From Geomonas limicola (GTDB lineage Bacteria > Desulfobacterota > Desulfuromonadia > Geobacterales > Geobacteraceae), in contig NZ_BLXZ01000007.1 in NCBI RefSeq assembly GCF_014193675.1, forward strand, positions 124,001 through 188,000: a stretch of 64,000 nt of DNA, written 5' to 3'. Below are positions 39,077 through 59,200 of this stretch, one piece after another; position 1 is the stretch's first letter, and each line of letters starts with the position of its first letter. Made by a program: the position numbers and the translations under genes. A model generated the notes under the pieces. The model was not told the origin of the DNA and searched no databases. It saw nothing but the letters and a program-made list of their open reading frames with translations.

Positions 39077-40729
39077 TTACCGGCTCCCCAGGTCCCGCCA
39101 CTCGACCGCTCCCAGGTGGGAATCACCGAGGAAGGTGTAGACCAGGCTTATCGTTCCATCGGCTTGCTTGCTGCGTGGCAGGGATCCATAGTGCGCATAG
39201 CGCAGCGACTCCACGAATTGCAGCCCGATACCGTGACGGCGAAACACCCGTACCGTGAAGCCGGTGTTGATCCGGGCGATCTGCTCGTACCCCTCGGCAT
39301 CGTCGGAACCGGTACCGCTTACGTAGTAACCGCGTCCGATCAATTCCAGTGCGGCCCTGTTGGCAAAGAGCATGCGCAAGGCCAGCAGGACCTGGGGTGT
39401 CGCGCCGTAATGGTAGTCGCGCATGCCGAGATCCACCGGGGTCTTGCCGGCCGCTCCGAACCCGAAGCCACCAAGGACCGTACCCTGCAAGGCGATGGCC
39501 GGTGCCATCCAGTACTGCCCGGTGGTTCCCAGGGAGAGTGCCGTGGTGGAGACCCGGAAATTGGTGGGCGACAGGTAGTCGTAGCCGCCGTAGATCCCCC
39601 AGATGCCGCGATAGTTCTCGCCGACGTGGTAGTCCCGGCCGACCAGCAGGCCGCGCAGGAGTACGTAGCTGATCGGGTTCTGTGCCTCGGAGAGGCCACC
39701 TATCTGGAAATCGAAGTAATCGAAGGGGCGGCGGTAGGTATACCCGGGCTTGCCGGGCAGGCCGTAGGACATCTGGAAATCCAGTACCGCCGCCTGCCGC
39801 CCATTTCCGCTGACGCTCGCCCCCAGGCGGGTCCGCCAGAAGAGCGCAGGGTCGTGGCTGGGAAAGATCGGCTTGAACCATTCCCCGAAGGCCCAGCGGT
39901 TGAACCCGGTCGGCGGAGAGAGCAGGGCCGCGCCGGCCTCGTGCCAGGCATCCGGGCGCGGCGCGTCTTCCTGCAGTACCAATTGGGACATGCGGAAAAG
40001 TGCTTCCCCCAAAAGACTGCCGGAGTTGCCGGTGGTGATCAGGTCGTTTATCGAGGGGCGGCTGGTCTCTCCGGCCATCTCCCAGGTGAAGCTTCCCAGG
40101 TTGCTGTAGATAAGGGACTCCCAGAAGTTGAGGCCCGCGGACCGGGCTATGCCGTACATGGTGGCCCCCTGGTAGGGGTGCCCAATCTGGTTGACGTTGA
40201 ACGGGTCGCGGTCGAAGGTCCAGTTCTGCTTTCTCAGGTGCTGCCAGATGGTGGAGGGGTTGCTGTCGTAGGTACTGCTTCCTTCCTGGGTTTTGGTGTG
40301 CAGGAAACTGCGGTCGTAGAGGTTGAGGAGCACCAGAAAACTCGGGAGTTCGATACCCGGAATCAGGTAACTTCTTCCGGCGCCGCTGTCCCAATCGAGA
40401 ACCGTGGAGCCGCCGGTTGTCCCTTGTGCCGGTGCCGGGGACGCCGCGCCTACGGCTGTGTCTTGCTCGGCAGCAATTCGGCGCCAGCTGAACGCCGGCG
40501 GGGAAGGGGGGAGGGGAGTGCTTTGCAAGGACGCCCTCCCCGGCTGGTCGGCCGACTCCGTTTTGCGTGGGGACACTGCCGGTTCTGCGCCGCGGTGCAC
40601 AGGGGATGCCCCCCGGGCCGCCTCCGCGTCGAGACCTGGTGGGGCGCCGGCCTGGGAGGCCGGCGCGACTAACAGGCCGGTTACCAGTAAAAAAAGCAGC
40701 GCTGAAACTAACCGCGTCATCGGGGGCAT
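39077..40729 (-). CDS. DUF3943-family outer-membrane-type protein
   Basis: A 550-residue exported protein. The signal peptide is about 1-28 (LVSALLFLLVTGLLVAPASQA). A Pro/Ala-rich linker of about 80 residues follows. The DUF3943 region is clear: DRDPFNVNQIGHPYQGATMYGIARSAGLNFWES, GSFTWEMAGE, PSINDLITTG. The C-terminal 300 residues are beta-strand-like with many Tyr/Gly pairs (YGGYDYLSP, GFGFGAAG), suggesting a barrel. Function of the family is unknown. Start 40729 has GGAGA 5 nt upstream. It diverges from the acyltransferase gene at 41072. Confidence 0.8.
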   Translation of the reverse strand: MPPMTRLVSALLFLLVTGLLVAPASQAGAPPGLDAEAARGASPVHRGAEPAVSPRKTESADQPGRASLQSTPLPPSPPAFSWRRIAAEQDTAVGAASPAPAQGTTGGSTVLDWDSGAGRSYLIPGIELPSFLVLLNLYDRSFLHTKTQEGSSTYDSNPSTIWQHLRKQNWTFDRDPFNVNQIGHPYQGATMYGIARSAGLNFWESLIYSNLGSFTWEMAGETSRPSINDLITTGNSGSLLGEALFRMSQLVLQEDAPRPDAWHEAGAALLSPPTGFNRWAFGEWFKPIFPSHDPALFWRTRLGASVSGNGRQAAVLDFQMSYGLPGKPGYTYRRPFDYFDFQIGGLSEAQNPISYVLLRGLLVGRDYHVGENYRGIWGIYGGYDYLSPTNFRVSTTALSLGTTGQYWMAPAIALQGTVLGGFGFGAAGKTPVDLGMRDYHYGATPQVLLALRMLFANRAALELIGRGYYVSGTGSDDAEGYEQIARINTGFTVRVFRRHGIGLQFVESLRYAHYGSLPRSKQADGTISLVYTFLGDSHLGAVEWRDLGSR

Positions 40730-41071
40730 AGCGTCTCCATAAGCTGGTCCGACTCCTCTGGTGCACCCCTGACCCAGAAGAGCGAAGGGGAGATGGGTGA
40801 GTCCGCACAGCCGAGAGCCTCGTTCGTTACTGAAACAGCGGGAAAACCTCAGGGACTGGCACAGTGATGTGGGGGACAGAGTCGTAAATGATATTAGTCC
40901 ATGCAAATGTAACGGCATGAGCTTATCATAAAATCTGATATTTTCAGTTTTGCTGCTATCCTTGCTGCGAACCGGACCGAGGGTGACTCAGACCGGATCC
41001 GGGTGCCTTTGAGAGAGTTCCCGGCATGCATCGGGTAGGTTGGCGGCTGGGTGGCACAAGGAGTGACAGGT
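40730..41071. other. divergent intergenic region
   Basis: About 340 nt between the DUF3943 gene (minus) and the lipid-salvage-like pair (plus). It contains an AT-rich core (40885-40960) that should hold the promoters, but I could not fix convincing -35/-10 pairs. No RNA gene was seen. Confidence 0.4.
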
Positions 41072-43546
41072 ATGCAGACCCTGATAGATCTTTTCCGTAC
41101 CTTTCCTGGGCTCGGCAACAAAACGGCCTTTATCAACCGCACCGGCATCCGCAGGTTTGTCACCAGCTATCGAGACTGCTACGATCTTGCCCTGAGGATG
41201 GCCAGCCTGCTCGAACAGCAAGGGGTGCAACCCGGTGATCGGGTGGTGCTCTGGGGGCCCAACTCTTCCTGGTGGGGGGTGGCCTACTGGGGGATCCTGG
41301 TGCGGGGTGCCATCGCGGTGCCGGTCGACTTCATGTCGGACCTGGCACGCGCCGACAGCATCCGGCGTCTGACCGATGCGAAGCTCGTGCTGCAGAGCAG
41401 GTTCAAGGTCGAACGGATCGCCGCCGGCACCACCCTGCTTTTGGAACACCTGCCGTTTCTGCTCCCCGAGTTGCCCCCCAGTTCCCTTATCAACGAACCC
41501 AAACCCGACGACATAGCGCAGCTCATCTATACCTCGGGGACCACCGGGAACCCCAAGGGGGTGATCCTCACCCACCGGAACCTGGCGGCCAACATCGTGC
41601 AGATCAACAGCCAGGTGCCCATCATCACGCCGGAGTTCTCGTTTCTTTCCCTTTTGCCGCTGTCCCACATGTTCGAACAGATGGGTGGATTCTTCACCCC
41701 GCTCTACCGCGGTGCCACGGTGATCTACCTGGGCGCGCTCAAGCCGTCAGCGATCCTGGAGGCGCTGGCCGAGGAAGACGTCTACGTCATCATGTCGGTC
41801 CCCAGGCTCATGCAGCTGTTAAAAACGAGCATCGAGCGGGAACTTGCCGAGAAGCACCTGGCAGGTGTTTTCGCCAAGCTGTCCCGGTTCGCAGAAGGGA
41901 CCTCGATGCAGGCCCGCAAGCTGCTCTTTTACCCGGTGCAGCGCAAATTCGGGCGCAACTTCACGGTCTTCGTCTCGGGCGGCGCGCCGCTATCCCCGGA
42001 GCTCTTCGCCTTCTGGTTCAACATGGGGTTTACCGTCCTGGAGGGGTACGGGCTGACCGAGACCGCTCCGGTGCTCTGCGTCAACACCATGCAGCGCCAG
42101 GTGCCCGGATCGGTCGGCCCACCCTTGCCGGGGGTGGAGCTGAAAATCGAGGACAAGGAAGTGCTGGCTCGCGGCGCTAACGTGTTCCCCGGCTACTACC
42201 AAAACGAGGAGGCGACCCGTGCCGCCTTCAGCGCCGACGGCTGGTTCAAGACCGGTGACCTGGGTGAGATCGGCCCGGACGGCTGGCTGACCATCAAGGG
42301 GCGCGAGAAGGAACTGATCGTCACCGGGGCAGGGGTGAACGTTTACCCTGACGAGGTTGAGGCGGTGCTCAACAAGGTGGCGGGAGTGAAGGAAGCCTGC
42401 GTGATCGGCCTGGACCGGGGCGGTGGGGAGGAGGTGCATGCCGTGCTCCTCCTGGACCATTCGGGTACCACTCCGGACGCCATCATCGCCCAGGCCAACA
42501 AAGGTCTCGACGGGATGCACCAGATAACCGGCTACACCGTCTGGAAAGAGCCGGAATTCCCCAAGACCACCACGCTGAAGATCAAGAAGTTCGCAGTGAA
42601 AGAGGCGATCAAGCAGGGGGCCGAAGAGGGGGCAGCCACCGGGTCGCGGGACAGCCTGGTCAATCTCCTGGCCAAGGTAACCGGAACGCCGGTGGCGCAG
42701 ATCCGCGAGGACTCGCTGGTGGTCGCCGACCTGGGGCTTACCTCCATCGCCCGCCTGGAGCTGGTGAACTTTCTGGAACAGGAGTACCGGCTCGATATTG
42801 ACGACTCGCAGATCGGTCCCCAGTCCCGGGTCTCCGACGTGCGCCGGATCATCGAAAAACGCGAGAAGCTCTCCCGGAAAAACCACTACCGGTTCTGGAC
42901 CAACGCGCCCTGGGCCCGGGGGATGCGCCGCTTCTGGGACCGCGTTTTCCACTATCCCCTGTACCGCAGCTTCGCCCGACTCGAGGTGCAGGGACGCGAG
43001 AACCTGTCCCAGATCAAGGGTCCGGTCTTCTTCATTGCGAACCACCTCGGGTACTTCGACCAACCATCGGTAATGTTTGCGCTTCCGCCCGAGCTTCGCT
43101 ATAGTACCGCGACCGCTGCCTGGGCAGAGTTCTTTTTCGGCGACTACCACGGCCTGAACCGACTCTGGAGGCGTTTCACCTTCGAGTACGGTACCCTGTT
43201 CTTCAACCTCTTTCCGCTACCCCAGCAGCAGGGGTTCAGCGCCGCCTTCAGGTTCATGGGGAGGCTCGCCGATGCGGGGATCAACATCCTGATCTTCCCG
43301 GAAGGCGCCCACACCCGGACCGGCACGATGCAACCCTTTCAGCTGGGGCTCGGCATCATGGTGAAGGAGCTGGGGCTCCCGGTGGTGCCGATCAAGATCA
43401 GGGGGAGCGACGAGGTGCTGCCGCCCGAAGCGAGTTTCCCCCGCAGCGGTACCATCTCGGTCCGCTTCGGCGCACCGCTTACCTTCCGCTTCGAAGAACC
43501 GGCCGAGATCGTGGAGATAGCGCGCCGGGCGGTGGAAGAGTTGTAA
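41072..43546 (+). CDS. AMP-binding acyl-ACP synthetase / acyl carrier / PlsC acyltransferase fusion
   Basis: An 824-residue multidomain enzyme. Residues 1-500 are an adenylating acyl-CoA/ACP synthetase (IYTSGTTGNPKGV, EGYGLTETAP, WFKTGDLGEI, GREKELIVTGAG). Residues about 515-595 are an acyl carrier domain with the phosphopantetheine Ser in DLGLTSIARLELV. Residues about 620-820 are a PlsC-type acyltransferase with HX4D (NHLGYFD) and FPEGAHTRTG. This resembles E. coli Aas, which reacylates lysophospholipids, but has domains in another order and its own carrier domain. AAGGAG lies 9 nt before ATG 41072; a GTG at 41051 would place that site inside the gene. Confidence 0.9.
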   Translation: MQTLIDLFRTFPGLGNKTAFINRTGIRRFVTSYRDCYDLALRMASLLEQQGVQPGDRVVLWGPNSSWWGVAYWGILVRGAIAVPVDFMSDLARADSIRRLTDAKLVLQSRFKVERIAAGTTLLLEHLPFLLPELPPSSLINEPKPDDIAQLIYTSGTTGNPKGVILTHRNLAANIVQINSQVPIITPEFSFLSLLPLSHMFEQMGGFFTPLYRGATVIYLGALKPSAILEALAEEDVYVIMSVPRLMQLLKTSIERELAEKHLAGVFAKLSRFAEGTSMQARKLLFYPVQRKFGRNFTVFVSGGAPLSPELFAFWFNMGFTVLEGYGLTETAPVLCVNTMQRQVPGSVGPPLPGVELKIEDKEVLARGANVFPGYYQNEEATRAAFSADGWFKTGDLGEIGPDGWLTIKGREKELIVTGAGVNVYPDEVEAVLNKVAGVKEACVIGLDRGGGEEVHAVLLLDHSGTTPDAIIAQANKGLDGMHQITGYTVWKEPEFPKTTTLKIKKFAVKEAIKQGAEEGAATGSRDSLVNLLAKVTGTPVAQIREDSLVVADLGLTSIARLELVNFLEQEYRLDIDDSQIGPQSRVSDVRRIIEKREKLSRKNHYRFWTNAPWARGMRRFWDRVFHYPLYRSFARLEVQGRENLSQIKGPVFFIANHLGYFDQPSVMFALPPELRYSTATAAWAEFFFGDYHGLNRLWRRFTFEYGTLFFNLFPLPQQQGFSAAFRFMGRLADAGINILIFPEGAHTRTGTMQPFQLGLGIMVKELGLPVVPIKIRGSDEVLPPEASFPRSGTISVRFGAPLTFRFEEPAEIVEIARRAVEEL

Positions 43547-43569
43547 GGACATCGGAAGACGGAGGACGC

Positions 43570-44829
43570 ATGCCAGCAGAAACCATCTCGCAAAACTACC
43601 GCCGCTACGTGCTGGGACTGCTTTTGGCCGTGAACCTCTTGAACTACATCGACCGGCAGGTACTCTTCGCCGTTTTTCCGCTGCTCAAGGCCGATCTGAA
43701 CCTCTCCGACACGGCTCTTGGTTTCCTGGGGAGCGCCTTCATGCTGAGCTACATGATGCTCGCGCCGCTTTTCGGCTGGCTGGGGGATCACTGGAGCCGG
43801 GTGAAACTTGCCGCCAGCGGCCTGGTGGTCTGGAGCCTGGCCACCGCCCTGGCCGGTCTCGCCCCCGGGTACCGGACGCTCCTGGCCGCGCGTGCCACGG
43901 TCGGGGTAGGGGAGGCGAGTTTCGGTACCGTCTCGCCGGGTCTCATCGCCGATTACTTCCCCAAGGAGCGGCGCGGCGAGATCCTCTCCTGGTTCTACGT
44001 GGCGATTCCGGTCGGCAGCGCGCTCGGCTACCTTTTAGGCGGGATCCTGGGTGAAAAGTTCGGCTGGCATGCCGCTTTTCTCATGGTTGGCCTGCCGGGG
44101 CTCGCCCTGGCGCTCCCCATCGCGCTCTTGCGCACCCCGCCACGCACTCCTGCCGCCTCGGCGCACGGCGCACCCGATTCCGGGACGGACCTCCCCGCCG
44201 AGGGTTCGGGGAGTTACCTCGACCTGTTCCGGAACCGCTCCTTTGTCTTTAATACCCTGGCCATGGCTGCGATGACCTTCGCCATCGGCGGCCTCGCCCA
44301 GTGGATCCCCTCGTTTCTAAACCGCACCCACGGTCTCAACGTGGCCAAGGGGAACACCCTGTTCGGCGGTATCACGGTGCTGGCCGGCATCCTCGGCACC
44401 CTCGCGGGGGGGTGGCTGGGAGATCGCTGGCAGAAAAAGAGCCCGGCCGGATACCTGCACGTTTCCGGCTGGGGCTTTTTGATCGGCACCCCCTTTGCCG
44501 CCTGGGCCATCCTGGCGCCCGACCTGAAATCCTGCCTGGGCGCCATCTTCGTAGCGGAATTCTTCCTCTTTCTCAACACCGGCCCGCTCAACACGGTGAT
44601 CATCAACGTGACCCCACCTACCATGCGGGCCATGGCCTTCGCGGTGAACATCTTCTTCATCCATGCCCTGGGAGACGCCTTCTCCCCCTCCATCCTCGGG
44701 TGGCTTTCCGACCTCTGGAACCTGCGCAGTGCCCTCTTGATCACTCCGCTTGCCATGGCATTGTCAGGGGTGCTCTGCTTTGCCTGTGGCCGGTTCGTGG
44801 TAAAGGACATGGCTCGTGTCGAAAGCTAG
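43570..44829 (+). CDS. MFS transporter, spinster-like
   Basis: A 419-residue, twelve-helix major facilitator. The start MPAETISQNYRRYVLGLLLAVNLLNYIDRQVLFAVFP and the motif A region GWLGDHWSRVKLAASG, followed by ATVGVGEASFGTVSPGLIADYFPKERRG, match the spinster-like group. Eukaryotic Spns1 exports lysophospholipids. It starts 23 nt after an Aas-like fusion gene, as lplT (an MFS lysophospholipid flippase) precedes aas in E. coli. That context suggests lysophospholipid import for reacylation; other substrates remain possible. Confidence 0.85.
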   Translation: MPAETISQNYRRYVLGLLLAVNLLNYIDRQVLFAVFPLLKADLNLSDTALGFLGSAFMLSYMMLAPLFGWLGDHWSRVKLAASGLVVWSLATALAGLAPGYRTLLAARATVGVGEASFGTVSPGLIADYFPKERRGEILSWFYVAIPVGSALGYLLGGILGEKFGWHAAFLMVGLPGLALALPIALLRTPPRTPAASAHGAPDSGTDLPAEGSGSYLDLFRNRSFVFNTLAMAAMTFAIGGLAQWIPSFLNRTHGLNVAKGNTLFGGITVLAGILGTLAGGWLGDRWQKKSPAGYLHVSGWGFLIGTPFAAWAILAPDLKSCLGAIFVAEFFLFLNTGPLNTVIINVTPPTMRAMAFAVNIFFIHALGDAFSPSILGWLSDLWNLRSALLITPLAMALSGVLCFACGRFVVKDMARVES

Positions 44830-45190: not shown

Positions 45191-45448
45191 ATGGGTGAAG
45201 AACTCATGTACCAGGTTAAAAACTTCATCATCAACACGCTGCGCAGCGAGGGGCTTACCGTGCACGACCTTGAGCCGGATGTCCCCCTGTTCGGCGAGGG
45301 GCTGGGACTGGATTCGGTCGATATCCTGCAACTGGCTACGGGGATGGAACATGCCTTCGGTGTGGTGATTCCCGATGCCGCGGTCGCCTCGCAGGTTTTC
45401 CGGTCGGTGCGCAGTATGGCCGAGTACATCGAATTGCACAGTTACTGA
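45191..45448 (+). CDS. acyl carrier protein
   Basis: An 85-residue acidic four-helix carrier. The phosphopantetheine Ser is in LGLDSVDILQLATGMEHAFGV (about Ser38), followed by helix III and a C-terminal SMAEYIELHSY. ATG 45191 lies 5 nt after GGAGG; the GTG directly before it is too close to that site. It is not in a fatty-acid synthesis cluster, so it is probably a specialised ACP, perhaps for the upstream acyltransferase or the downstream lipoprotein genes. A near-consensus promoter drives it. Confidence 0.9.
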   Translation: MGEELMYQVKNFIINTLRSEGLTVHDLEPDVPLFGEGLGLDSVDILQLATGMEHAFGVVIPDAAVASQVFRSVRSMAEYIELHSY

Positions 45449-45626
45449 CGCCGTTGAGTCGGGTCCAGGCCAACTTCGAAAGTTGCCCGAGGCGTCAAAC
45501 GGGGGAATCCAGGGTCGAGACTGCAGACTTTGCGCAATCAGTACTTGAATGTGGCGTACCGGTCAGGTAAATAGGAACTCCGACGGTTGCATGCCGTACA
45601 TCTGCCGCGCCTTGTGAGGTTCTCTG

Positions 45627-46331
45627 GTGTCCTTTAGGTTCGTTCCCCTCTCGTTCGTTCGTTGCCTCGGCGTCTTGCTGGCGGCTATCGCCCTGACAGC
45701 CTGTGCCGCCGTGCCGAAACCTTTAACCGGGCTGGTTCCGGGCCGGCAGCTGGAAACCCTGCAATCCTCGGTGTCACTCTCCATGAAATATGGGGATCGC
45801 GGCACCAGCGGCCGGGGCTACCTGGTGTTCCGCTACCCTGACCGTTTCCATGTCGCCGTCCTTTCTCCTTTCGGTCTCACGGTGCTCGAGGTTTTCAGCG
45901 ACGGAGATCGCCTCACCTGCCTGGTACCCGCCCGGCAGACCGCCTACCAGGGACGCACCTCCGAACTGCCAGCCAATGCGATGTTCAGAAGCTTTGCACT
46001 TTTCAAGTGGGTGGTGGCGCACCAGGAGGACACCGCTCCGGACCAGTACGGGCAGGAGATCCTGGCGGCAAGCGGGGACCGGATCCGCTACGACAAGTTC
46101 GGCCTGATCGAGCGAAAGATCTCTCCCGCAGGGGACCTGGCAGAATTTCACGACTACCGCAACGTAAATGGGGTGGCTTTCCCCGAATCCATCGAGATCA
46201 AAACAGGACTAACCTCGGCACGCATCGTCTTTGACGAACCTGAAATCAACGCGACAATCGAACCTTCCGTACTTGAGCCGAACCTGGAAGGTTACAGCGT
46301 GCGGCCTCTCGAAGAATTCACCGGGGTCTGA
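45627..46331 (+). CDS. LolB-like / lipoprotein-sorting-type outer-membrane lipoprotein
   Basis: A 234-residue lipoprotein. The signal ends in lipobox LTAC (Cys26). The mature part is a beta-rich fold: SVSLSMKYGDRGTSGRGYLVFRYPDRFHVAVLSPFGLTVLEVFSDGDRL resembles the half-barrel core of LolB/LolA and DUF4292 proteins, which bind lipid acyl chains in a hydrophobic cavity. GTG is the start with GAGG 7 nt upstream. It lies 178 nt after the acyl carrier protein gene on the same strand. Lipid or lipoprotein handling at the outer membrane is inferred, not shown. Confidence 0.65.
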   Translation: MSFRFVPLSFVRCLGVLLAAIALTACAAVPKPLTGLVPGRQLETLQSSVSLSMKYGDRGTSGRGYLVFRYPDRFHVAVLSPFGLTVLEVFSDGDRLTCLVPARQTAYQGRTSELPANAMFRSFALFKWVVAHQEDTAPDQYGQEILAASGDRIRYDKFGLIERKISPAGDLAEFHDYRNVNGVAFPESIEIKTGLTSARIVFDEPEINATIEPSVLEPNLEGYSVRPLEEFTGV

Positions 46332-46537
46332 GAGAATACCGTCCTTCGTTCTTCCAGCCAGGATGCTGCCCGTATCGTTTTTGGTCAGGCTGGATGGCTA
46401 TGAGCACAAGATGCTCGTGACATTTTGCAGCAATTATTACCGTCAGGCTTTTAATAATAGTCTCTCCTTGGTATGCTTTGCCATGAGGGTCCACGTGGAT
46501 CCCATATCTGCTGCCGAGCTTCAACCAAGGAGATGAC

Positions 46538-46834
46538 ATGAAATCCCAATATATCCTCCAGTCTTTGTCAGTTCTTGCCGTAGTGGTTCTGCTCGGAGCG
46601 TGCTCGACCAGCCAGGCCGCCAAACCTGCTGCGCCCCCCATGGTACCGGCCAAGCCGATCGCCATCCCTCTGGGGAAAAACTGGCAGGTCATCGAAGAGG
46701 CCCCCCAACTCACCAACGAAAAAAGGGGCAATCAGCCGGCGTTTCAGACCGAGCAGTCGGTACAGCCCCCGGGCGCGCCTCCCACGACGCCGTCCGACGT
46801 TCGCAAACTCGAGACGCCGAACTCCGGGCGCTGA
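46538..46834 (+). CDS. small Pro/Ala-rich lipoprotein
   Basis: A 98-residue lipoprotein with signal SLSVLAVVVLLGAC (Cys22 in lipobox LGAC). The mature part is Pro-, Ala- and Gln-rich with no fold evident (KPAAPPMVPAKPIAIPLGKNW, then QSVQPPGAPPTTPS). AAGGAG lies 5 nt before the ATG. It sits between the LolB-like lipoprotein and the PerM-type permease. Family not recognised. Confidence 0.75.
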   Translation: MKSQYILQSLSVLAVVVLLGACSTSQAAKPAAPPMVPAKPIAIPLGKNWQVIEEAPQLTNEKRGNQPAFQTEQSVQPPGAPPTTPSDVRKLETPNSGR

Positions 46835-46981
46835 CCCGAGCTATCCTGGAAACTCCCGCCTGAGGTTACCCGAGGGCAGGGAGCCACCAGGTGACCGTTG
46901 GTCTCCCCGTGCTGCTGTGCTGCTTCGCCAGCGGTCCCGGAAGGGGAGCGCATCCCTACCAAAAGAGGACAGGTGCCCTTA

Positions 46982-48058
46982 ATGGATAACAAGATCTACC
47001 AGAGCTTTCTTGCTGCGTTTTTCACCATCGCCGCTATCGCCGTGATCGGACTTCTCGCCATGCCGGTCGCCGCGCCGCTCGCCTGGGCCCTCATCATCGG
47101 TATCGCGACGCTGCCGCACTACAACCGGATACTGAAGCACTTTCCGGAACGGCCGGGAAAAGCTGCCGGCTTGATGGTCTTTATCGTGACCATCTGCTTC
47201 ATCCTCCCCCTGGCGGCCTTCATCACCACCGTCGTCATCAACGCGAGCGACTGGTACCGCGAGGCCGAGCAGCTGGTTCGAGAATTTGCCCGCACTGGCG
47301 CCAATACCATAAGCCATCTCCCCCTGGTGGACCGGCTCACCTCGCTCACCGACAGGTTGGGGGTAGACCTGAAAGGGATCGGAGCCAAGGCCGCTGCTGC
47401 CTCTTCTGCGTTTCTGATCCAACTGGCCACCAACACCGCACGCAGCCTGGCGGACCTGCTGTTCACCCTGGCAGTTGCCCTTTTTATCCTCTTTTTCATC
47501 TATCGCGATGGCGAACGCACCGTTTCCGCGGCGATCGACCGATTCGCCTCCAATCCTGCAACTGCACACCGCTACGTGAACCAGATCCGCTCCATCACCA
47601 CCTCGGTCACGGTGGGGACCATCCTGACCTGCTGCGTCCAGGGGGTAACCGCTGGCCTGGGCTACTTCGTGGCAGGGGTCCCGGCCCCGGTTCTCTGTGG
47701 GGCCCTCACCGCGGTTGCCGCACTCATCCCGGTGGTAGGTACCGGTGTGGTCTGGGTCCCGCTGGTGGCGCTCATCGCCCTGAACGGTGCCTACCTGAAG
47801 GCGGGGCTCCTGGCGCTGTGGTGCGTATTGTTCGTCGGCCTGGCCGACAACGCAATCCGACCCTTGGCCATCGGCGCCACGGGGGACATACCGGTTCTGG
47901 CGATCGTACTTGGCGCCATCTGTGGTGTTTTCAGTCTCGGGATCCTCGGCCTTATCCTGGGGCCGGTCCTCTTTGCCATCCTGATTTCTCTGTGCGCGGA
48001 TCTCATCCACCCGCAAAAGGTCGTAGCGGACGACGCTGCTTCGCAAACCGGCAGCTGA
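46982..48058 (+). CDS. AI-2E/PerM (UPF0118) family membrane protein
   Basis: A 358-residue inner-membrane protein with about seven helices. Family features: N-terminal paired helices (AAIAVIGLLAMPVAAPLAWALIIG), a soluble middle, then LFILFFIYRDGERTVSAA and the C-terminal VAALIPVVGTGVVWVPLVALIAL with GIIGLILGP-like GILGLILGPVLFAI. Members export small molecules or Na+/H+ (the AI-2 role holds only for TqsA). ATG 46982 was chosen; GTG 46973 closer to AGAGGA is an alternative. It is downstream of two lipoprotein genes. Confidence 0.85.
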   Translation: MDNKIYQSFLAAFFTIAAIAVIGLLAMPVAAPLAWALIIGIATLPHYNRILKHFPERPGKAAGLMVFIVTICFILPLAAFITTVVINASDWYREAEQLVREFARTGANTISHLPLVDRLTSLTDRLGVDLKGIGAKAAAASSAFLIQLATNTARSLADLLFTLAVALFILFFIYRDGERTVSAAIDRFASNPATAHRYVNQIRSITTSVTVGTILTCCVQGVTAGLGYFVAGVPAPVLCGALTAVAALIPVVGTGVVWVPLVALIALNGAYLKAGLLALWCVLFVGLADNAIRPLAIGATGDIPVLAIVLGAICGVFSLGILGLILGPVLFAILISLCADLIHPQKVVADDAASQTGS

Positions 48059-48279
48059 AGCTGGATGAACAGGCTGCAGGCGCTACCCGCGCCTTGGCGC
48101 TTGAGGGTTGCTTTTCCCGAGAAGGGACAGCGGCCTTTTTTGCGTCTCGAGCCTGACACTACTTCCCGGGGGACTCGTAGCAAAGGGATGGAAGGCTTTC
48201 CACAATTGGGAGTATTATGGTTCACAGGTAGTACCACACCTTTCAATGAGAGTTATCTGCTGCTCTACCGGGAGGTTCT

Positions 48280-49248
48280 ATGACAGGAAACAGGGAACGC
48301 CTCCTGCCGGGTTGGCTACGAAGAGGGATGCTGCTGTTCCTGCTCCTTGCCGCCGCTGTTACCGGCAGCCCGGCATCGGCCGAGGAAGCGGTAACCGGTG
48401 CGGCCCGGGCGCTACTCGCCAAGTATCCGTCGGTTGCCCCCAAACTTCAGAAAAACCTCTTCGGCGCGCCGATTTACCTCGAGTCCTTCGAGAACAAGGG
48501 GACCGCGGAGGTCGACATGTACGGGGTGTTCGGCCACACGTTCCACCAGGTGAAAGACACCTTGGCGGTACCGGCAAACTGGTGCGACATAACCTCGCTG
48601 CACATCAACATCAAGGCCTGTACCGCGAAAAAAACGGGGAGCACCTGGCTGGTGACCTTGTACAGCGGCAGGAAGTACTACCAGCCGCCGGGCGATGCCT
48701 ACCCGCTCAAGCTCACCTTTCGCGTGGTTGCGCAGCAACCGGACTACCTCAACGTGACCCTCCAGGGAGACCAGGGGCCGCTGAGAACCAAGGATCACCG
48801 GATCAGGCTGGAAGCGGTGCCGCTCGACGGTGGCAAGAGTTTCGTCCATTTCAGCTATTCCTACCGCACCGGCACGATTGCCACCATGGCCATCAAAAGT
48901 TACTTCGCCACGGTGGCCCGGGACAAGGTCGGGTTCAGTACGGTAGCCGGCCCGAACGGGAACCGGGTCCTGGTAACCGGGGTGCGGGGGGCGGTGGAGC
49001 GAAACGCGGTGCGCTACTACCTGGCACTGGAGTGTTTTCTGGATGCGCTCAAGACGCCGGAGAAGGAACGCTTCGAGCGCAGAATCGGCGAGTGGTACGA
49101 TCTGACCGCGCGCTATCCGCGTCAGCTGAAGGAACTGGAGAAAAACGAGTATCTCGCCAACAAGCGGCGGGAGCAGCAAAATCAGTTGACGCTGCAGGGG
49201 GAAGCTGCCTTGCTTCCCGGGGGAGGGAAACCTGACGAGGATACCTGA
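48280..49248 (+). CDS. exported hypothetical protein
   Basis: A 322-residue protein with an N-terminal signal (MLLFLLLAAAVTGSPASA, cleavage near residue 35). The middle contains a beta-rich region with Cys pairs (WCDITSLHINIKACTAKKTG) and SFVHFSYSYRTGTIATMAIKSYF, which faintly recalls START/SRPBCC-type folds. The C-terminal 80 residues are helical and charged (ERRIGEWYDLTARYPRQLKELEKNEYL). GGAGG precedes the ATG. Only 12 nt separate it from the next small gene, so they form an operon. No function can be given. Confidence 0.75.
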   Translation: MTGNRERLLPGWLRRGMLLFLLLAAAVTGSPASAEEAVTGAARALLAKYPSVAPKLQKNLFGAPIYLESFENKGTAEVDMYGVFGHTFHQVKDTLAVPANWCDITSLHINIKACTAKKTGSTWLVTLYSGRKYYQPPGDAYPLKLTFRVVAQQPDYLNVTLQGDQGPLRTKDHRIRLEAVPLDGGKSFVHFSYSYRTGTIATMAIKSYFATVARDKVGFSTVAGPNGNRVLVTGVRGAVERNAVRYYLALECFLDALKTPEKERFERRIGEWYDLTARYPRQLKELEKNEYLANKRREQQNQLTLQGEAALLPGGGKPDEDT

Positions 49249-53087: not shown

Positions 53088-53996
53088 CTAGAAGTCGTAC
53101 TTGACGCGTACCCCGGTCATCTCTTTGCTGACCGAGGGAAGGATCATCAGGTGATTGGCGGCCTTGCCGTCATCCTTGTGGAGTTTCAGGATGGCCTTGC
53201 TCATGAAGTACCCGATGGCGCCGCCGAAGAAGACGTCCGAGCTCCAGTGGGCATTGGAGTAGATCCGGGAGAGCCCGGTCAAGGCGGCAAGGCTGTAGGC
53301 AACCGGCGGGACCCAGGCGTGGTCCTTGTACTGTTCCGCGAAAACGGTGGCTATGGAGAACGAGGAAGCCGTGTGTCCCGAGCTGAAGGAAAGGTTTTTC
53401 ATGCTGATGCGGGGACCGTCCCAGGTGGTGGGAAGATCGCCGGTGCTCGGACGGTGGCGCTCGGCCAACACCTTGAGGCCGGAGGTGAGGAGTCCCGAAA
53501 GGGCGAAGCTTTCCAGGGCGAGCAGCGAGGTCTTGCGTGCCTTGCTGTCGTCAGCCAGGTACCCGTAGAGGTAAAACGAACCGACGGCGGGCAGGGTGTA
53601 GGCGCCGTTCCCCAGGTCGTTGCCGAGTATGGCAAATTTTGACGCTACCTGGCTTTGGTTATTCTGGGAAAAGTTCTTTATCTTCTGGTCCAGCAGCATC
53701 AAACTGCCGGTGGCACCTACCACGAGACCCAATTTAAGCCAGTCTTTTTTGTCCCAATTAAATGGCATCGTGACAATTTGGGCAGAGTCTGTCAGATAGC
53801 TCTTGATGTATTTCAGGTCGAGGTTGCTGGAACCGTCAGCTACACTGAGATCCGGATTTTCTTCCTGTGGCTCCGATGCTGGAAGGGGTGCTGAACTAGT
53901 TACCGGAACAGGATCATCTTGTGATGCTGCATGTGCTGATAGACAAGATACGGTACTGCTGAGTAAGACGAGTCCGGCTATGAGTTTCTTCAGCAT
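53088..53996 (-). CDS. exported PAP2-family phosphatase
   Basis: A 302-residue lipid-phosphatase-type protein. The signal peptide is 1-24 (IAGLVLLSSTVSCLSAHA). The acidic linker to about 60 is followed by membrane or barrel-like helices. The three PAP2 motifs are present: KVLAERHRPSTG (KxxxxxxRP), FSSGHTAS (SGH), and SRIYSNAHWSSDVFFG (SRxxxxxHxxxD) with catalytic His residues. Substrates of such enzymes include undecaprenyl pyrophosphate, phosphatidate and lipid A phosphates. A long AT-rich region precedes it; single-gene unit. Confidence 0.9.
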   Translation of the reverse strand: MLKKLIAGLVLLSSTVSCLSAHAASQDDPVPVTSSAPLPASEPQEENPDLSVADGSSNLDLKYIKSYLTDSAQIVTMPFNWDKKDWLKLGLVVGATGSLMLLDQKIKNFSQNNQSQVASKFAILGNDLGNGAYTLPAVGSFYLYGYLADDSKARKTSLLALESFALSGLLTSGLKVLAERHRPSTGDLPTTWDGPRISMKNLSFSSGHTASSFSIATVFAEQYKDHAWVPPVAYSLAALTGLSRIYSNAHWSSDVFFGGAIGYFMSKAILKLHKDDGKAANHLMILPSVSKEMTGVRVKYDF

Positions 53997-54497: not shown

Positions 54498-55739
54498 GTG
54501 AAAAAAATCGTGGCCATCGTGGTGGCGCTGGCGGTCCTGAGCGGCGCCGGATACTTCTTCCTGAAGCAGCCCCCCAAACCGCAGTACAAGACCCTCAGGA
54601 TCGAGCGGGGAAGCATCCTCTCCGCCGTTTCGGCGACCGGTACCCTCAATGCCGTGGTTACCGTCCAGGTCGGCACCCAGGTCTCGGGGACCCTCGCTAA
54701 GCTGTACGTGGACTACAACTCGCCGGTCAAAAAGGGGCAGCCTATTGCCCAGATCGACCCCGCGTTGCTCGGTGCCGCGGTGCAGCAGGCGACCGGCAAC
54801 GTCCTGAGCGCGGAGGCCAATCTGGCCAAGGCCCGGGTTACCCTGGCCGATGCCCAGCGTACCTTGTCCCGTAACAAGCAACTGCTCGAGCAGGGGATCG
54901 TCGCCCAAAGCGACCTGGATGCCGCCCAGACCGCCTACGATGCGGCGCAGGCCGGGGTGAGCGCGGCCCAGGCCTCTCTCGTCCAGACTAAGGGGGCGCT
55001 GAAGCAGGCGCAGACCAACCTCACCTATTCGACCATACGGTCGCCGGTGGACGGCATCGTGGTATCCCGCAGCGTCGACGTGGGCCAGACGGTCGCCGCC
55101 TCCTTTCAGACGCCGACACTCTTCACCATCGCCCAGGACCTCACCAAGATGCAGATCGATACCAGCGTCGACGAGTCGGACATAAGCCGCGTCAAGGTCG
55201 GTCAGCAGGCCACCTTCTCAGTCGATGCCTATCCCGACCAGCAGTTCGCCGGGACCGTGGTGCAGATCAGAAACGCCCCGGTCGTGAACCAAAACGTGGT
55301 GACCTACGTCACGGTGATCGCCGTGGACAACCGCGACCTGCGTCTCAAGCCCGGCATGACCGCGAACGTGTCGGTACAGACCCAGAAAAAAGAGGGGGTG
55401 CTGAAGCTCCCCAGTGCGGCCTTGCGCTTCAAACCGAAACTGGGGAAGGACGAGAAGCCCAGCGCGGGGCAAGCCCCTTTCACCGGAGCCGCAGCCGGTT
55501 CCAAGCAGGGTCCGGCCGCCGCCAGTTCCAGTCGCGACGCCCAAAAAAGGCCCACCCAGAAGGTCTATATCCTCAAGGGGCAGCAACCGGAGCCGGTTTT
55601 CGTGTCAACCGGGATCTCCGATGGCAGCTTCGTCGAATTGGTATCGGGATCTCTCAAAGAGGGTGACGAGGTGGTCGTCGAGCAGGTGAGCACCGCCAAG
55701 AAGTCCGGCATGGGGCCGCCCATGGGACCGAGGTTTTAG
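54498..55739 (+). CDS. MacA-like periplasmic adaptor (HlyD/RND membrane fusion protein)
   Basis: A 413-residue membrane fusion protein linking an inner-membrane ABC transporter to an outer-membrane channel. One N-terminal anchor helix (about 5-22, IVAIVVALAVLSGAGYFFL), lipoyl halves (GTLNAVVTVQVGTQVSG and IRSPVDGIVVSRSVDVGQTV), a coiled-coil hairpin with AxxxL heptads (about 105-175), beta-barrel, and a C-terminal membrane-proximal domain. A Ser/Ala/Lys-rich insert at about 325-350 is unusual. GTG 54498 follows CGAGGT by 5 nt; the longer in-frame version lacks a site. First gene of a four-gene efflux operon. Confidence 0.92.
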   Translation: MKKIVAIVVALAVLSGAGYFFLKQPPKPQYKTLRIERGSILSAVSATGTLNAVVTVQVGTQVSGTLAKLYVDYNSPVKKGQPIAQIDPALLGAAVQQATGNVLSAEANLAKARVTLADAQRTLSRNKQLLEQGIVAQSDLDAAQTAYDAAQAGVSAAQASLVQTKGALKQAQTNLTYSTIRSPVDGIVVSRSVDVGQTVAASFQTPTLFTIAQDLTKMQIDTSVDESDISRVKVGQQATFSVDAYPDQQFAGTVVQIRNAPVVNQNVVTYVTVIAVDNRDLRLKPGMTANVSVQTQKKEGVLKLPSAALRFKPKLGKDEKPSAGQAPFTGAAAGSKQGPAAASSSRDAQKRPTQKVYILKGQQPEPVFVSTGISDGSFVELVSGSLKEGDEVVVEQVSTAKKSGMGPPMGPRF

Positions 55740-56465
55740 ATGGCCGAGGTGGTCCGTCTCGAGGAGGTCGCCAAGGTCTACACCATGGGCGAGGAGAAGG
55801 TCGAAGCGCTCAGGGGGGTCTCCTTCAGCGTGGCTCCCGGGGAGTTCGTCTCGATCATGGGGGCCTCGGGGAGCGGCAAGTCGACCTGCATGAACATCCT
55901 TGGGTGCCTCGACGTACCGACGAGCGGGGCTTACCTTCTGGACGGGGTGAACGTGGGAGAGCTGTCGGGGAACCAGCTGGCCGAGGTGCGCAACAAGAAG
56001 CTCGGCTTCGTTTTCCAGGGGTTCAACCTGCTGGCGCGCACCACGGCGCGTGAGAACGTCGAGTTGCCGCTGGTCTACGCCCAGGTGCCGGCCGGTCGGC
56101 GCCGCGCGCTCGCCCAGGAGGCCCTGGCCAGGGTGGGGCTTGCCGGGCGCGAGGGGCACTTTCCGAACCAGCTCTCGGGTGGCCAGCAACAGCGGGTGGC
56201 CATCGCCCGGGCCCTGGTGAACCAGCCGTCCATCATCCTGGCCGACGAGCCGACCGGCAACCTCGATTCCACGACCACGGTCGAGATCATGGGGATCTTC
56301 CAGGAACTGAACCGCCAGGGGATAACCATCGTCATGGTGACCCACGAACCCGAGGTGGCCGCGTTCACCGGTCGGCAGATCGTCTTCCGGGACGGCTTAA
56401 TCGTGTCCGACACCCGCAGCGACAGGGCGACCCGTCCCGGGTCAGGGGAGGGCGAGGGATCATGA
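55740..56465 (+). CDS. MacB-like ABC transporter ATP-binding protein
   Basis: A 241-residue ATPase of the MacB/LolD class. Walker A is GASGSGKST, the Q-loop is FVFQGFNLL, the signature is LSGGQQQRVAIARAL, Walker B is IILADEPTGNLD, and the H-loop is VTHEPEVAAF. The start codon directly abuts the stop of the adaptor gene, and its end overlaps the permease gene by 4 nt. In E. coli MacB the ATPase and permease are one chain; here they are split. Confidence 0.96.
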   Translation: MAEVVRLEEVAKVYTMGEEKVEALRGVSFSVAPGEFVSIMGASGSGKSTCMNILGCLDVPTSGAYLLDGVNVGELSGNQLAEVRNKKLGFVFQGFNLLARTTARENVELPLVYAQVPAGRRRALAQEALARVGLAGREGHFPNQLSGGQQQRVAIARALVNQPSIILADEPTGNLDSTTTVEIMGIFQELNRQGITIVMVTHEPEVAAFTGRQIVFRDGLIVSDTRSDRATRPGSGEGEGS

Positions 56466-57691
56466 GCACCTTCCTGCAGAGCCTCCTCATCGCGCTTCGG
56501 GCGCTCCGGGTCAACAAGATGCGTGCCCTGCTCACCATGCTGGGGATCATCATCGGCATTGCGGCGGTCATCATCATGGTCGCCATCGGCTCGGGTGCCA
56601 GCAAGATGATCTCGGACCAGATCTCCAGTATCGGCAGCAACCTGCTCCTGGTGCTCCCGGGGTCCCTGACCAGCGGTGGCATGCGCAGCGGCACCGGCGG
56701 CGCCCAGAGCCTCACCTACGACGACGCCAAGGCGATCCGCACCGAGTGCCCCTCGGTGGCCGAGGTGGCACCGACCGTGCGCGGCTCCGCCCAGGTGGTC
56801 TACGGCAACCAGAACTGGTCCACCGTGGTACTCGGCGTCACTCCGGAAATCATCGCGGTCCGGGACTGGACCCTGGTCGCCGGTCGCAACATCTCCCAGT
56901 CCGACGTGGACGGCGCCTCGAAGAACTGCCTGGTCGGACAGACCGTTGCGGATAACCTGTTCGGTTCCGCCGACCCGATCGGAAAGATCATCCGGATCAA
57001 GAAGATCCCCTTCACGGTGGTCGGCCTCCTGGGGCGCAAGGGGCAGTCCCCGCAGGGGCAGGACCAGGACGACGTCATCTACGTACCGTTGCGCACGGCG
57101 CAGCGCAAGCTTTTGGGGAGCCAGTTCCCGAACGCGGTCGGGGCCATCATGATCGAGGCGCGCAGCGCCGATACGCTCAAAAAGGCCGAGGAAGAGGTGG
57201 TGGCGCTTTTGAACCAGCGGCACCGGGTGGGTCCCGGCCGGGAAGTCGACTACAGCATCCGGAACCTCTCCGAGCTCCTGGCGGTGTCCGAGCAGTCCAC
57301 CCGGGTCATGTCACTCTTACTCGGCGCGGTGGCCTCCATCTCCCTGGTAGTGGGCGGCATCGGCATCATGAACATCATGCTGGTATCGGTCACGGAGCGG
57401 ACCCGGGAAATCGGGATCAGGATCGCGATCGGCGCCAAGGAGCGGGACATCATGCTGCAGTTTCTCACCGAGGCGGTGCTCCTGACCACCTGTGGCGGGA
57501 TCATCGGCATGCTGCTGGGGGTGGGGGGCGCCCAACTGGTGGCCTCCATCGTCGGCTGGCCGACCCTCATCTCGGTACAGACCATCGCTATCGCCTTCGC
57601 TTTTTCCGCCGGCGTCGGGGTTTTCTTCGGTTTTTATCCGGCACGCAAGGCAGCGTCGCTCAACCCTATCGAGGCCCTGCGCTACGAGTAG
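56462..57691 (+). CDS. MacB-like ABC transporter permease
   Basis: A 409-residue type VII ABC permease. One N-terminal helix (ALLTMLGIIIGIAAVIIMVAIG), a large periplasmic MacB_PCD domain (about 45-270), and three C-terminal helices with SLVVGGIGIMNIMLVSVTERTREIGIRIAIGA, the coupling motif of the MacB/FtsX family, then TCGGIIGMLLGVGGA and the end LNPIEALRYE. It acts by mechanotransmission on the periplasmic adaptor. Coupled to the ATPase gene by ATGA overlap. Confidence 0.95.
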   Translation: MSTFLQSLLIALRALRVNKMRALLTMLGIIIGIAAVIIMVAIGSGASKMISDQISSIGSNLLLVLPGSLTSGGMRSGTGGAQSLTYDDAKAIRTECPSVAEVAPTVRGSAQVVYGNQNWSTVVLGVTPEIIAVRDWTLVAGRNISQSDVDGASKNCLVGQTVADNLFGSADPIGKIIRIKKIPFTVVGLLGRKGQSPQGQDQDDVIYVPLRTAQRKLLGSQFPNAVGAIMIEARSADTLKKAEEEVVALLNQRHRVGPGREVDYSIRNLSELLAVSEQSTRVMSLLLGAVASISLVVGGIGIMNIMLVSVTERTREIGIRIAIGAKERDIMLQFLTEAVLLTTCGGIIGMLLGVGGAQLVASIVGWPTLISVQTIAIAFAFSAGVGVFFGFYPARKAASLNPIEALRYE

Positions 57692-57712
57692 GGGCTTTTG
57701 AGGAAAGGATCC

Positions 57713-59200
57713 ATGATGACCATGACACGCATCGCGGCGGGGGTACTGGCAGGCTCACTCTTCATGGGGCTGGCCCTGCCGGTCTGCGCCGAACCCGCAC
57801 CGGTCCGGCTTACCCTGAACGACGCCGTCCGTCTGAGCTTCCAGCGTAACCTCGACCTCAAGGTCGAGCTCTACAATCCCGCCCAGGCCCAGGCCGACAT
57901 CTACCGTGCCCTCGGGATCTACGACCCTGCGCTGAACCTCTCGGTGAACTACAGCCGGTCCTCCACGACCGAGACCTTTTTCTTCACGCCGATCAACATC
58001 GACACCTTCACCGCCAGCGCCGGCGTGAGCGAGCTGCTCCCCACCGGCGGCACGCTCGGGGTGAACGCCAGTTCCGGCTGGATCAGCAACTCGAACAGTT
58101 ACTACAACAACGGGCTCACGCTGAACGCCAGCCAGCCCCTGCTGCGCAACTTCGGCCGCGAGAACACCGAACTCACTATCCAGGTCGCCCGGTTCGGCAA
58201 AGAGGGGTCCTTGGCCCGTTACCAGACCAAGCTCACCGACACCGTGGCCCAGGTCCGTAATGACTATTTCAGGCTCTACAACCTGCGCGAGGTTTTGCAG
58301 GTCAAGCGGACCTCGCTCGCCCTCGCCAACAAGATTCTCGAGGAGACCCGGGGGAGGGTGAAGGCCGGTGTGCTGCCGGCCATGGAGATCCTCAACGCCG
58401 AGTTCAGCGCAGCGGCCCGGGAAAAGGACGTCATCGATGCCGAGCGGGCGGTGCGGGACCAGGTCGACGTGCTGCGCCAGAGCCTGCAACTGGAGGGTGG
58501 CGGCGACATCGAGACTTCCGAGCCCCCCATCCGGGAGTTCATCACCATAGCCGAGGGGGAGGCGCTTACCCGGGCACTTGCCAGCCGTCCCGAACTCGCC
58601 GCCCAGCGGGTGACCCTGCAGGTTGACGAGCTGCAGCGCCGGGTCGCCAGGAACCGCACCCTGCCGGACCTTTCGGTGAACGCCAACTTCGGCTTCCAGG
58701 GGTACGATCCCCGTTTCCTCGGCGCCTACGAGAGAACCGCCAAGGCCGACTTCCCCACCTGGGGGATCGGGCTGCAGTTCAGCTATCCGATCGGCAACCG
58801 TGCCGCGGAGAACGACTACATCAAGAGTAAGCTCGCGCTCGAACAGGCCCAGACCCAGTTGCGCAACCTCGAATCGGGGGTGGTGAACGAGGTCCGGGCT
58901 GCCCTGCGCCTGGTCGATACCAGCTTCCGGCAGATCGAGGTCACCTCGCGCGGTACCGCCTACGCCGAAGAACGCCTGCGGGCCTTCCGGACCAAGAACG
59001 CCGTGGGGCTCGCCACCACCAAGGACGTCTTCGACGTGGAGAACGACCTGGTCAATGCGAAGGCGAGCCAGATCCAGGCGCTGGTCGATTACAACAATGC
59101 CCTGACTACCTTGTGGCGGGTGACCGGGGAGTTGTTGGAGCGCCAAGGGATCAAGGTAAGCGCAGCCCAGGCAGAGGAACTCTACGACAGCGCGCGCTAG
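57713..59200 (+). CDS. TolC-family outer-membrane efflux channel
   Basis: A 495-residue outer-membrane factor. The signal peptide ends near LPVCAEP; Cys may be internal rather than lipidated. Two TolC repeats with long coiled coils are visible: LTLNDAVRLSFQRNLDLKVE near the start, DTVAQVRNDYFRLYNLREVLQVK, and in the second half RAALRLVDTSFRQIEVTSRGTAYAEERLRAFRTKNAVG. It completes a MacA-MacB-TolC tripartite set. ATG 57713 follows AGGAAAGGA closely; 57716 or 57722 are alternatives. 22 nt from the permease stop. Confidence 0.9.
   Translation: MMTMTRIAAGVLAGSLFMGLALPVCAEPAPVRLTLNDAVRLSFQRNLDLKVELYNPAQAQADIYRALGIYDPALNLSVNYSRSSTTETFFFTPINIDTFTASAGVSELLPTGGTLGVNASSGWISNSNSYYNNGLTLNASQPLLRNFGRENTELTIQVARFGKEGSLARYQTKLTDTVAQVRNDYFRLYNLREVLQVKRTSLALANKILEETRGRVKAGVLPAMEILNAEFSAAAREKDVIDAERAVRDQVDVLRQSLQLEGGGDIETSEPPIREFITIAEGEALTRALASRPELAAQRVTLQVDELQRRVARNRTLPDLSVNANFGFQGYDPRFLGAYERTAKADFPTWGIGLQFSYPIGNRAAENDYIKSKLALEQAQTQLRNLESGVVNEVRAALRLVDTSFRQIEVTSRGTAYAEERLRAFRTKNAVGLATTKDVFDVENDLVNAKASQIQALVDYNNALTTLWRVTGELLERQGIKVSAAQAEELYDSAR

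Follow-up and report, generated by a model that had tools for sequence, protein, structure and literature searches.

In Escherichia coli, lysophospholipid is carried inward by the transporter LplT (PMC13170283; PMC11416262; the papers are cited throughout from the available parts of their text). The Spns (spinster) family of the major facilitator superfamily (MFS) includes SPNS1, a lysosomal lysophospholipid exporter (PMC13192786; PMC12404768), and in Pseudomonas aeruginosa misplaced phospholipid is handed by MlaZ (PA3239) to MlaY (PA3238) for degradation (PMC11131202). The E. coli genes aas and lplT (b2836-b2835) lie on the same strand with the enzyme gene first. The same arrangement, an acyltransferase/acyl-activating enzyme adjoining an MFS transporter, was found in a 64,000-nucleotide stretch of Geomonas limicola (contig 7 of the 5.23 Mb genome, NZ_BLXZ01000007.1, positions 124,001 to 188,000; hereafter the window). 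Here the enzyme is P0001, a fusion of AMP-binding, acyl carrier protein (ACP) and PlsC domains, and the transporter, P0002, is an Spns, while that of the E. coli pair is LplT. Judged from its sequence, the pair probably constitutes a lysophospholipid salvage unit which would function like E. coli LplT-Aas from other parts. A sequence-only reading had described the three domains in one chain with a spinster-like transporter 23 nucleotides further on, and both open reading frames (ORFs) were confirmed on the same strand (Table 1).

The family of P0002 was determined by comparison with solved structures and profiles. P0002 gave 190 bits with SPNS1, 187 bits with SPNS2 and 113 bits with the Hyphomonas Spns (HnSpns, 6e8j); the best non-Spns solved matches, the efflux protein EfpA and the D-galactonate transporter, resulted in 52 and 48.5 bits, respectively. 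With a profile made from Spns sequences of the order (Geobacterales), 253 bits were obtained for SPNS1, 245 for SPNS2 and 162 for HnSpns (two printed stretches of HnSpns), and 65, 49 and 44 bits for the E. coli controls DgoT, MdtL and EmrD, respectively; no match to E. coli LplT was reported by this profile. On the LplT profile NF008397, P0002 reached 27.7 bits (cut-off 297), and no other gene of the window genome scored higher on it. Eleven Spns residues are named in the available text of PMC9440201 (HnSpns numbering: D41, R42, D60, D87, R91, R122, E129, D142, W206, Y277, R289). Ten are identical in P0002 (D28, R29, D47, D73, R77, R108, E115, D128, W166, R252), and Y277 is replaced by Gly in P0002 and likewise in SPNS1 and SPNS2; D41, D87 and W206 occur in the non-Spns controls too. 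Human SPNS1 and SPNS2, HnSpns and the mycobacterial MsSpns belong to the same transporter family as P0002, with signature residues in common. In a Spns tree on 39 chosen rows the E. coli rows stood on very long branches; the Spns identity therefore rests on the scores and residues and not on the tree. On that basis P0002 is a genuine Spns without LplT likeness. A grouping with sugar or drug carriers, which the sequence-only reading had named as an outcome against its proposal, was also checked, and P0002 scored with SPNS1 and SPNS2, not with those carriers.

P0001 is a putative acyl-activating lysophospholipid acyltransferase with the domain order AMP-binding, AMP-binding_C (residues 428-501; 22.8 bits, under the cut-off of 24.5), PP-binding and PlsC. 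The carrier domain proposed earlier for the enzyme itself scored over its cut-off and contains the expected serine (Table 1). The nearest NCBIfam model for the adenylation domain was the long-chain acyl ligase PRK06187, with a score below the cut-off, and the top NCBIfam match of the PlsC part was the PlsC stretch of the LplT-Aas fusion PRK08633 (49 bits). The adenylation P-loop motif TSGTTGNPKG at 154 and the PlsC motifs NHLGYFD at 657 (H658-x4-D663) and FPEG at 742-745 are present, so that the adenylation and H-x4-D motifs expected of an Aas are intact. In a set of 57 different homologous chains, every member has the P-loop and an H-x4-D motif; FPEG was present in 56 chains, and the adenylation-lysine pattern matched 54. 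The ACP-serine pattern matched 54 as well; since the remaining three are variant spellings, DIGLTSI or DLGLSSI (read by eye), the carrier serine is kept in all 57. The scores with Aas models were far below the cut-offs: 173 bits with NF005291 (cut-off 1349) and 162 bits with NF006386 (cut-off 1221). NF005959 (Aas) was absent among the 25 models listed for P0001, and the PlsC part alone gave 14.6 bits with it (cut-off 886). Canonical Aas-LplT as a label for the pair was rejected by these profile tests of enzyme and transporter. In E. coli Aas, PlsC stands ahead of the adenylation part (approximately residues 232-716) and there is no ACP domain, whereas P0001 has the order AMP-binding, ACP, PlsC and an ACP domain of its own. 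AMP-binding, carrier and PlsC domains are mixed in one chain also in myxobacterial ElbD and other multi-domain ether-lipid enzymes; the reductase domain of the ElbD-type enzymes is absent from P0001.

The conservation of the pair was surveyed in 141 genomes of the order (thresholds E <= 1e-120 for Spns and E <= 1e-150 for the fusion; gene distances measured between aligned spans, with some neighbours hidden by contig ends). Spns was detected in 106 and the fusion in 94 genomes. The 122 listed Spns copies were divided at 72% identity to P0002 into 74 of subgroup A and 48 of subgroup B. The fusion lies at most 250 nucleotides upstream on the same strand of 33 subgroup-A copies, of which every one of the 19 Geomonas genomes contributes one and other genomes 14; the fusion was found within 1.5 kb of 39 subgroup-A copies (9 genera) and within 12 kb of 49. 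With subgroup B, which serves as an internal control from the same order, no fusion was found within 12 kb of any of the 48 copies. The conservation that the sequence-only reading required thus holds for Geomonas and for about half of subgroup A at 1.5 kb, but not for subgroup B. Outside the order, the fusion was detected in only 2 additional genomes among 395 from the phylum (E <= 1e-120), at 36-37% identity and with no close Spns beside it.

The genes linked to Spns in relatives include a hydrolase which is MlaY by homology. The hydrolase of one such locus (L067) had no Pfam family match and its next gene is MlaA (PF04333, 208 bits). A tblastn search led to a P. aeruginosa hydrolase of 39% identity, encoded directly before a VacJ-family lipoprotein. 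The MlaY triad of P. aeruginosa, Ser187/Asp388/His415 (PMC11977310), aligned to S167/D367/H394 of the Trichlorobacter hydrolase. Both features looked for as marks of MlaYZ, an alpha/beta hydrolase with the Ser/Asp/His triad and an MlaA-type lipoprotein directly downstream, were found. PMC11977310 describes MlaY as a PldA homologue integral to the outer membrane, which is not suggested by the predicted alpha/beta model of the MlaY homologue (predicted local distance difference test, pLDDT, 91.7). The Foldseek matches of this model were general alpha/beta hydrolases with a query template modelling (TM) score of 0.35-0.46, a membrane phospholipase A being tenth among the 50 matches listed. P. aeruginosa MlaY-MlaZ and the Spns-linked genes share the order of lipase gene and MlaA-type lipoprotein gene and the equivalent places of the triad; in many relatives of the window genome MlaY-MlaA is clustered with Spns and the AMP-ACP-PlsC enzyme, while in the P. 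aeruginosa record it is not. MlaY homologues of 33-38% identity were also seen in two Skermanella plasmids and in a Fusobacterium record of 2.1 Mb entered as a plasmid.

A MlaY gene lies within 1.5 kb of 26 of the 74 subgroup-A copies, and in 26 genomes Spns has both the fusion and MlaY inside 12 kb. Gene by gene, 95 Spns contexts were read (L196 and L207, which were not called as Spns genes, stand outside this number). The hydrolase was within six genes of Spns in 32 of them, and a same-strand MlaA was next in 30 of the 32; of the other two, L181 meets the contig end and L176 the edge of the count. The gapless orders fusion-Spns-MlaY-MlaA and MlaY-MlaA-fusion-Spns were found in 4 contexts each, and in further contexts one or few genes intervene. 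For 22 of the 102 fusion copies, in 11 genera, MlaY lies no more than 3 kb away. In 11 of the 95 contexts a stand-alone PlsC gene follows Spns; the one tested (L083) had the PlsC stretch of the LplT-Aas fusion as its top NCBIfam match. In L165 and L186, what is labelled PlsC upstream of Spns is most likely the remainder of a fusion gene truncated where the contig begins. Starting from MlaY, the named-contig loci were the best 79 of 585 confirmed stretches and therefore lean to near relatives. Within these best 79, MlaA is directly downstream of MlaY in 78, the remaining locus (L266) ending about 150 bases past the lipase gene; Spns is present in 27 and Spns with the fusion in 18, and the record titles reach Nitrosomonas and bins labelled Gammaproteobacteria, Nitrospinota and others. 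In alignment A2, L276 was excluded (stop codon), and L292 and L305 were entered with shortened ranges.

Co-occurrence in the 141 genomes was assessed with Fisher tests, which ignore the relatedness of the genomes. MlaY co-occurs with subgroup-A Spns (61 both, 9 Spns only, 19 MlaY only, 52 neither) and with the fusion (73 both, 21 fusion only, 7 MlaY only, 40 neither). With subgroup-B Spns no association was found (24 both, 24 B only, 56 MlaY only, 37 neither), and the link between MlaY and LplT was weak (36 both, 17 LplT only, 44 MlaY only, 44 neither; p 0.05).

The pair could work as follows. MlaYZ would release lysophospholipid into the periplasm and Spns, presumably driven by protons, would carry it inward to the cytoplasmic leaflet, the route taken with LplT in E. 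coli. A fatty acid would then be activated by the AMP-binding domain of the fusion, held and handed over by the enzyme's own ACP domain, and used by the PlsC domain to re-acylate the lysolipid. The pair would thus resemble PldA/LplT/Aas in its working, and by its protein families it is not a member of that system. The context of MlaY, MlaA and stand-alone PlsC in relatives strengthens the lysophospholipid idea. In many bacteria of the order the genes may form a self-contained cluster for the recycling of outer-membrane phospholipid, MlaA(MlaZ)-MlaY-Spns-(AMP-ACP-PlsC), in which MlaA would extract misplaced phospholipid, MlaY would cut it, Spns would return the lysolipid and the carrier-bearing enzyme would reactivate the fatty acid and rebuild the phospholipid; this wider proposal is put forward tentatively, its chances being slightly short of even.

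Several observations weigh against the salvage proposal. The available text of PMC13192786 describes MsSpns as a versatile drug transporter, so that Spns membership leaves the substrate unsettled, and the models of HnSpns cycle substrate from cytoplasm to periplasm, i.e. outward (PMC9440201). Distant Spns copies of the phylum (about 30-45% identity) sit in unrelated-looking gene contexts, so that the substrate does not follow from membership in the family. In 12 genomes of the order the fusion was found with no Spns match and in 24 genomes Spns with no fusion; 35 of the 74 subgroup-A and all 48 subgroup-B copies are without a fusion within 1.5 kb, some neighbours being hidden by contig ends. 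The canonical LplT-PlsC-AMP fusion (NF006386, PRK08633) scored over the cut-off in 47 of the 141 genomes and in 16 of the 19 Geomonas genomes, in which the salvage job would therefore be duplicated. In the window, the pair adjoins ACP, LolB-like and other genes, not MlaYZ. The earlier suggestion of lysophospholipid salvage is partly supported: it is strengthened by the genomic context in relatives, while the mycobacterial drug transporter shows another function in the family, and the substrate, the direction and the reacylation are inferred from sequence.

The alternative that survives best is export, in which the fusion would make a specialised lipid and Spns would send the lipid or its lyso form outward, as SPNS2 does with sphingosine-1-phosphate. 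It agrees with the outward cycle of HnSpns, with the near-equal scores of P0002 for SPNS2 and SPNS1, and with the overlap of the fusion and aminotransferase genes in one genome (G020), which resembles a set of genes for biosynthesis. The linkage to the lipid-degrading pair MlaY and MlaA, which should release lysolipid in the periplasm, and to PlsC enzymes, which should use lysolipid on the cytoplasmic side, argues for the inward route instead, and export is regarded as unlikely.

The relation to LplT bears on another alternative. The presence of LplT was taken as a match at E <= 1e-20, none of the matches being over the LplT model's own cut-off. Spns and LplT were both present in 38 genomes, Spns only in 68, LplT only in 15 and neither in 20 (p 0.55). 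Strict replacement of LplT by Spns was rejected, as this distribution shows no exclusion: the Spns unit stands beside the LplT system in 38 of the 106 Spns genomes and without it in 68 (some genomes incomplete). The sequence-only reading, in which the same task was solved by a different transporter family, is consistent with the 68 genomes, the window genome, G015 and G018 among them, and is limited by the 38 and by the 16 Geomonas genomes with LplT. The NF006386/PRK08633 fusion is expected to have the same three activities as the Spns-fusion pair and is found in the same order of bacteria, but it is a single chain with an LplT-type transporter, unlike the two-gene pair. A parallel system could be considered, in which LplT-Aas handles lyso-phosphatidylethanolamine and the Spns-fusion pair handles MlaY products of another class (such as lyso-phosphatidylglycerol or lyso-cardiolipin) or serves chiefly to reuse the fatty acid set free. 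Along with the shared genomes, subgroup-A Spns was somewhat commoner with LplT (33 both, 37 Spns-A only, 20 LplT only, 51 neither; p 0.02, relatedness ignored), and P. aeruginosa mutants of MlaY, MlaZ and MlaA degrade less cardiolipin after sphingosine (PMC11977310). The 68 Spns genomes without an LplT match, that of the window included, speak against such a division, which appears quite unlikely.

A polyspecific efflux pump that shares the operon with a lipid enzyme by chance would fit the description of MsSpns and the rank of EfpA as the best non-Spns solved match; it is improbable in view of the repeated linkage to lipid genes across genera and the low scores of EmrD and MdtL against SPNS1 on the Spns profile. 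Operon drift, i.e. adjacency inherited within one order with no mark of joint function, is hardly credible, for although all pairs were found in one order and one Spns subgroup and relatedness was ignored in the tests, the linkage is not of one kind (the fusion can stand upstream with MlaY-MlaA downstream, MlaY-MlaA can stand upstream or be present where the fusion is missing, and a stand-alone PlsC gene can lie downstream).

The features of the unit and its surroundings are collected in Table 1.

Table 1. Coordinates of the Spns-fusion pair and associated genes (window positions unless a contig is given).
Feature	Position	Strand	Basis
AMP-binding/ACP/PlsC fusion enzyme P0001, 824 aa	41072..43546 incl. 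stop	+	ORF, Pfam domains, motifs
P0001 AMP-binding (adenylation) domain, residues 16-376	41117..42199	+	244 bits
P0001 phosphopantetheine carrier (ACP; PP-binding) domain, residues 528-581	42653..42814	+	23.7 bits, cut-off 20.8
P0001 carrier Ser558	42743-42745	+	motif DLGLTSI at 553
P0001 PlsC (Acyltransferase) domain, residues 636-776	42977..43399	+	47 bits
Spacer between P0001 and P0002 genes, 23 nt	43547..43569	+	same-strand ORFs
Spns (spinster)-family MFS transporter P0002, 419 aa	43570..44829	+	MFS_1 180 bits; SPNS1/SPNS2 nearest solved relatives
Stand-alone acyl carrier protein gene	45191..45448	+	among 19 Geomonas Spns loci (1.5 kb downstream), only here and G015
LolB-like lipoprotein gene	45627..46331	+	Pfam LolB 36 bits; after Spns in 15/19 Geomonas loci within 1.5 kb
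Small lipoprotein, family k22; unit membership tentative	46538..46834	+	recurs beside Spns genes of other genera
MlaY-MlaA pair of the window genome, outside the window	C5:162697-164707		MlaY/MlaA homology

The small lipoproteins of family k22, with a motif around IPxGKNWQVIEEAP, stand beside Spns in L163, L165, L176, L179 and L185 and near the fusion in L076; no Pfam family was found in the two members tested. The block 45191-49248 of the window comprises the ACP, the LolB-like protein, the small lipoprotein, an AI-2E-type permease and a secreted-looking protein. For the last (48280-49245), the single-sequence model was poor (pLDDT 36) and no support was found for a 'START' label given by eye. 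The second Spns copy of G018 (L081) precedes the same LolB/lipoprotein/permease/secreted-protein block without a fusion. Further envelope genes lie nearby in the window: one for a DUF3943 protein (39080-40918, minus strand), which diverges from that of the fusion, one for a PAP2 phosphatase (53091-53768, minus strand) and a HlyD/ABC/MacB/OEP export gene set (54498-59200, plus strand).

The three Geomonas genomes without an LplT match at E <= 1e-20 are those of the window (G000), G015 and G018. The canonical Aas-type gene of the window genome (L002, G000:C1:696798-698738) is without an LplT domain and ends early, at 671 aa; that of G015 has the same shortened PlsC-AMP form, 656 aa, with no LplT match. 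These shortened genes may reflect domain loss, decay or assembly error. In G018, neither a shortened PlsC-AMP protein nor an LplT match was found.

Unpaired fusion genes in G020, G022, G320 and G100 (L078, L085, L155, L156) adjoin a conserved protein of about 870-880 aa which resembles a P-type ATPase by eye. In G020 (L078:7631-11757) the fusion gene has a four-base overlap with a gene whose second part matches PhnW-type aminotransferases and whose first part is GNAT-like by eye; a different role of the fusion is possible there. The distant Spns copies of the phylum were rejected as members of the same system, their gene contexts looking unrelated. Those of about 45% identity (families f13/f56; L120, L122, L126, L127, L128, L132) end a conserved gene run (clusters k7-k10, k2) that resembles aromatic amino acid synthesis by eye.

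The gene neighbours given for MsSpns are a steroid dehydrogenase and an isocitrate lyase (PMC13192786), and no linked acyltransferase or Mla gene is mentioned for bacterial Spns in the available text of PMC9440201 and PMC13192786; the P0002-type Spns, unlike these, has such linked genes. The new observation is that in relatives the Spns-fusion pair is often clustered with MlaY and its MlaA-type partner. No paper in which a bacterial Spns is connected with MlaA, MlaY or PlsC enzymes was among the literature matches listed, which is weak evidence of novelty as subscription journals were mostly outside the search. The natural substrates of bacterial Spns are left open in the accessible parts of PMC9440201 and PMC13192786, and the fate of the MlaY products is only outlined in those of PMC11131202 and PMC11977310. 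A cluster with both Spns and MlaY is a direct link between the two, and would offer bacterial models for SPNS1-type lysophospholipid transport. If the proposal is true, the MlaYZ pathway would gain its inner-membrane half, bacterial Spns a physiological lysophospholipid role, and the lysosomal salvage by SPNS1 a bacterial counterpart. The findings suggest that the PldA/LplT/Aas cycle was put together twice, the second time out of other protein families, and that some genomes have both versions in one cell.

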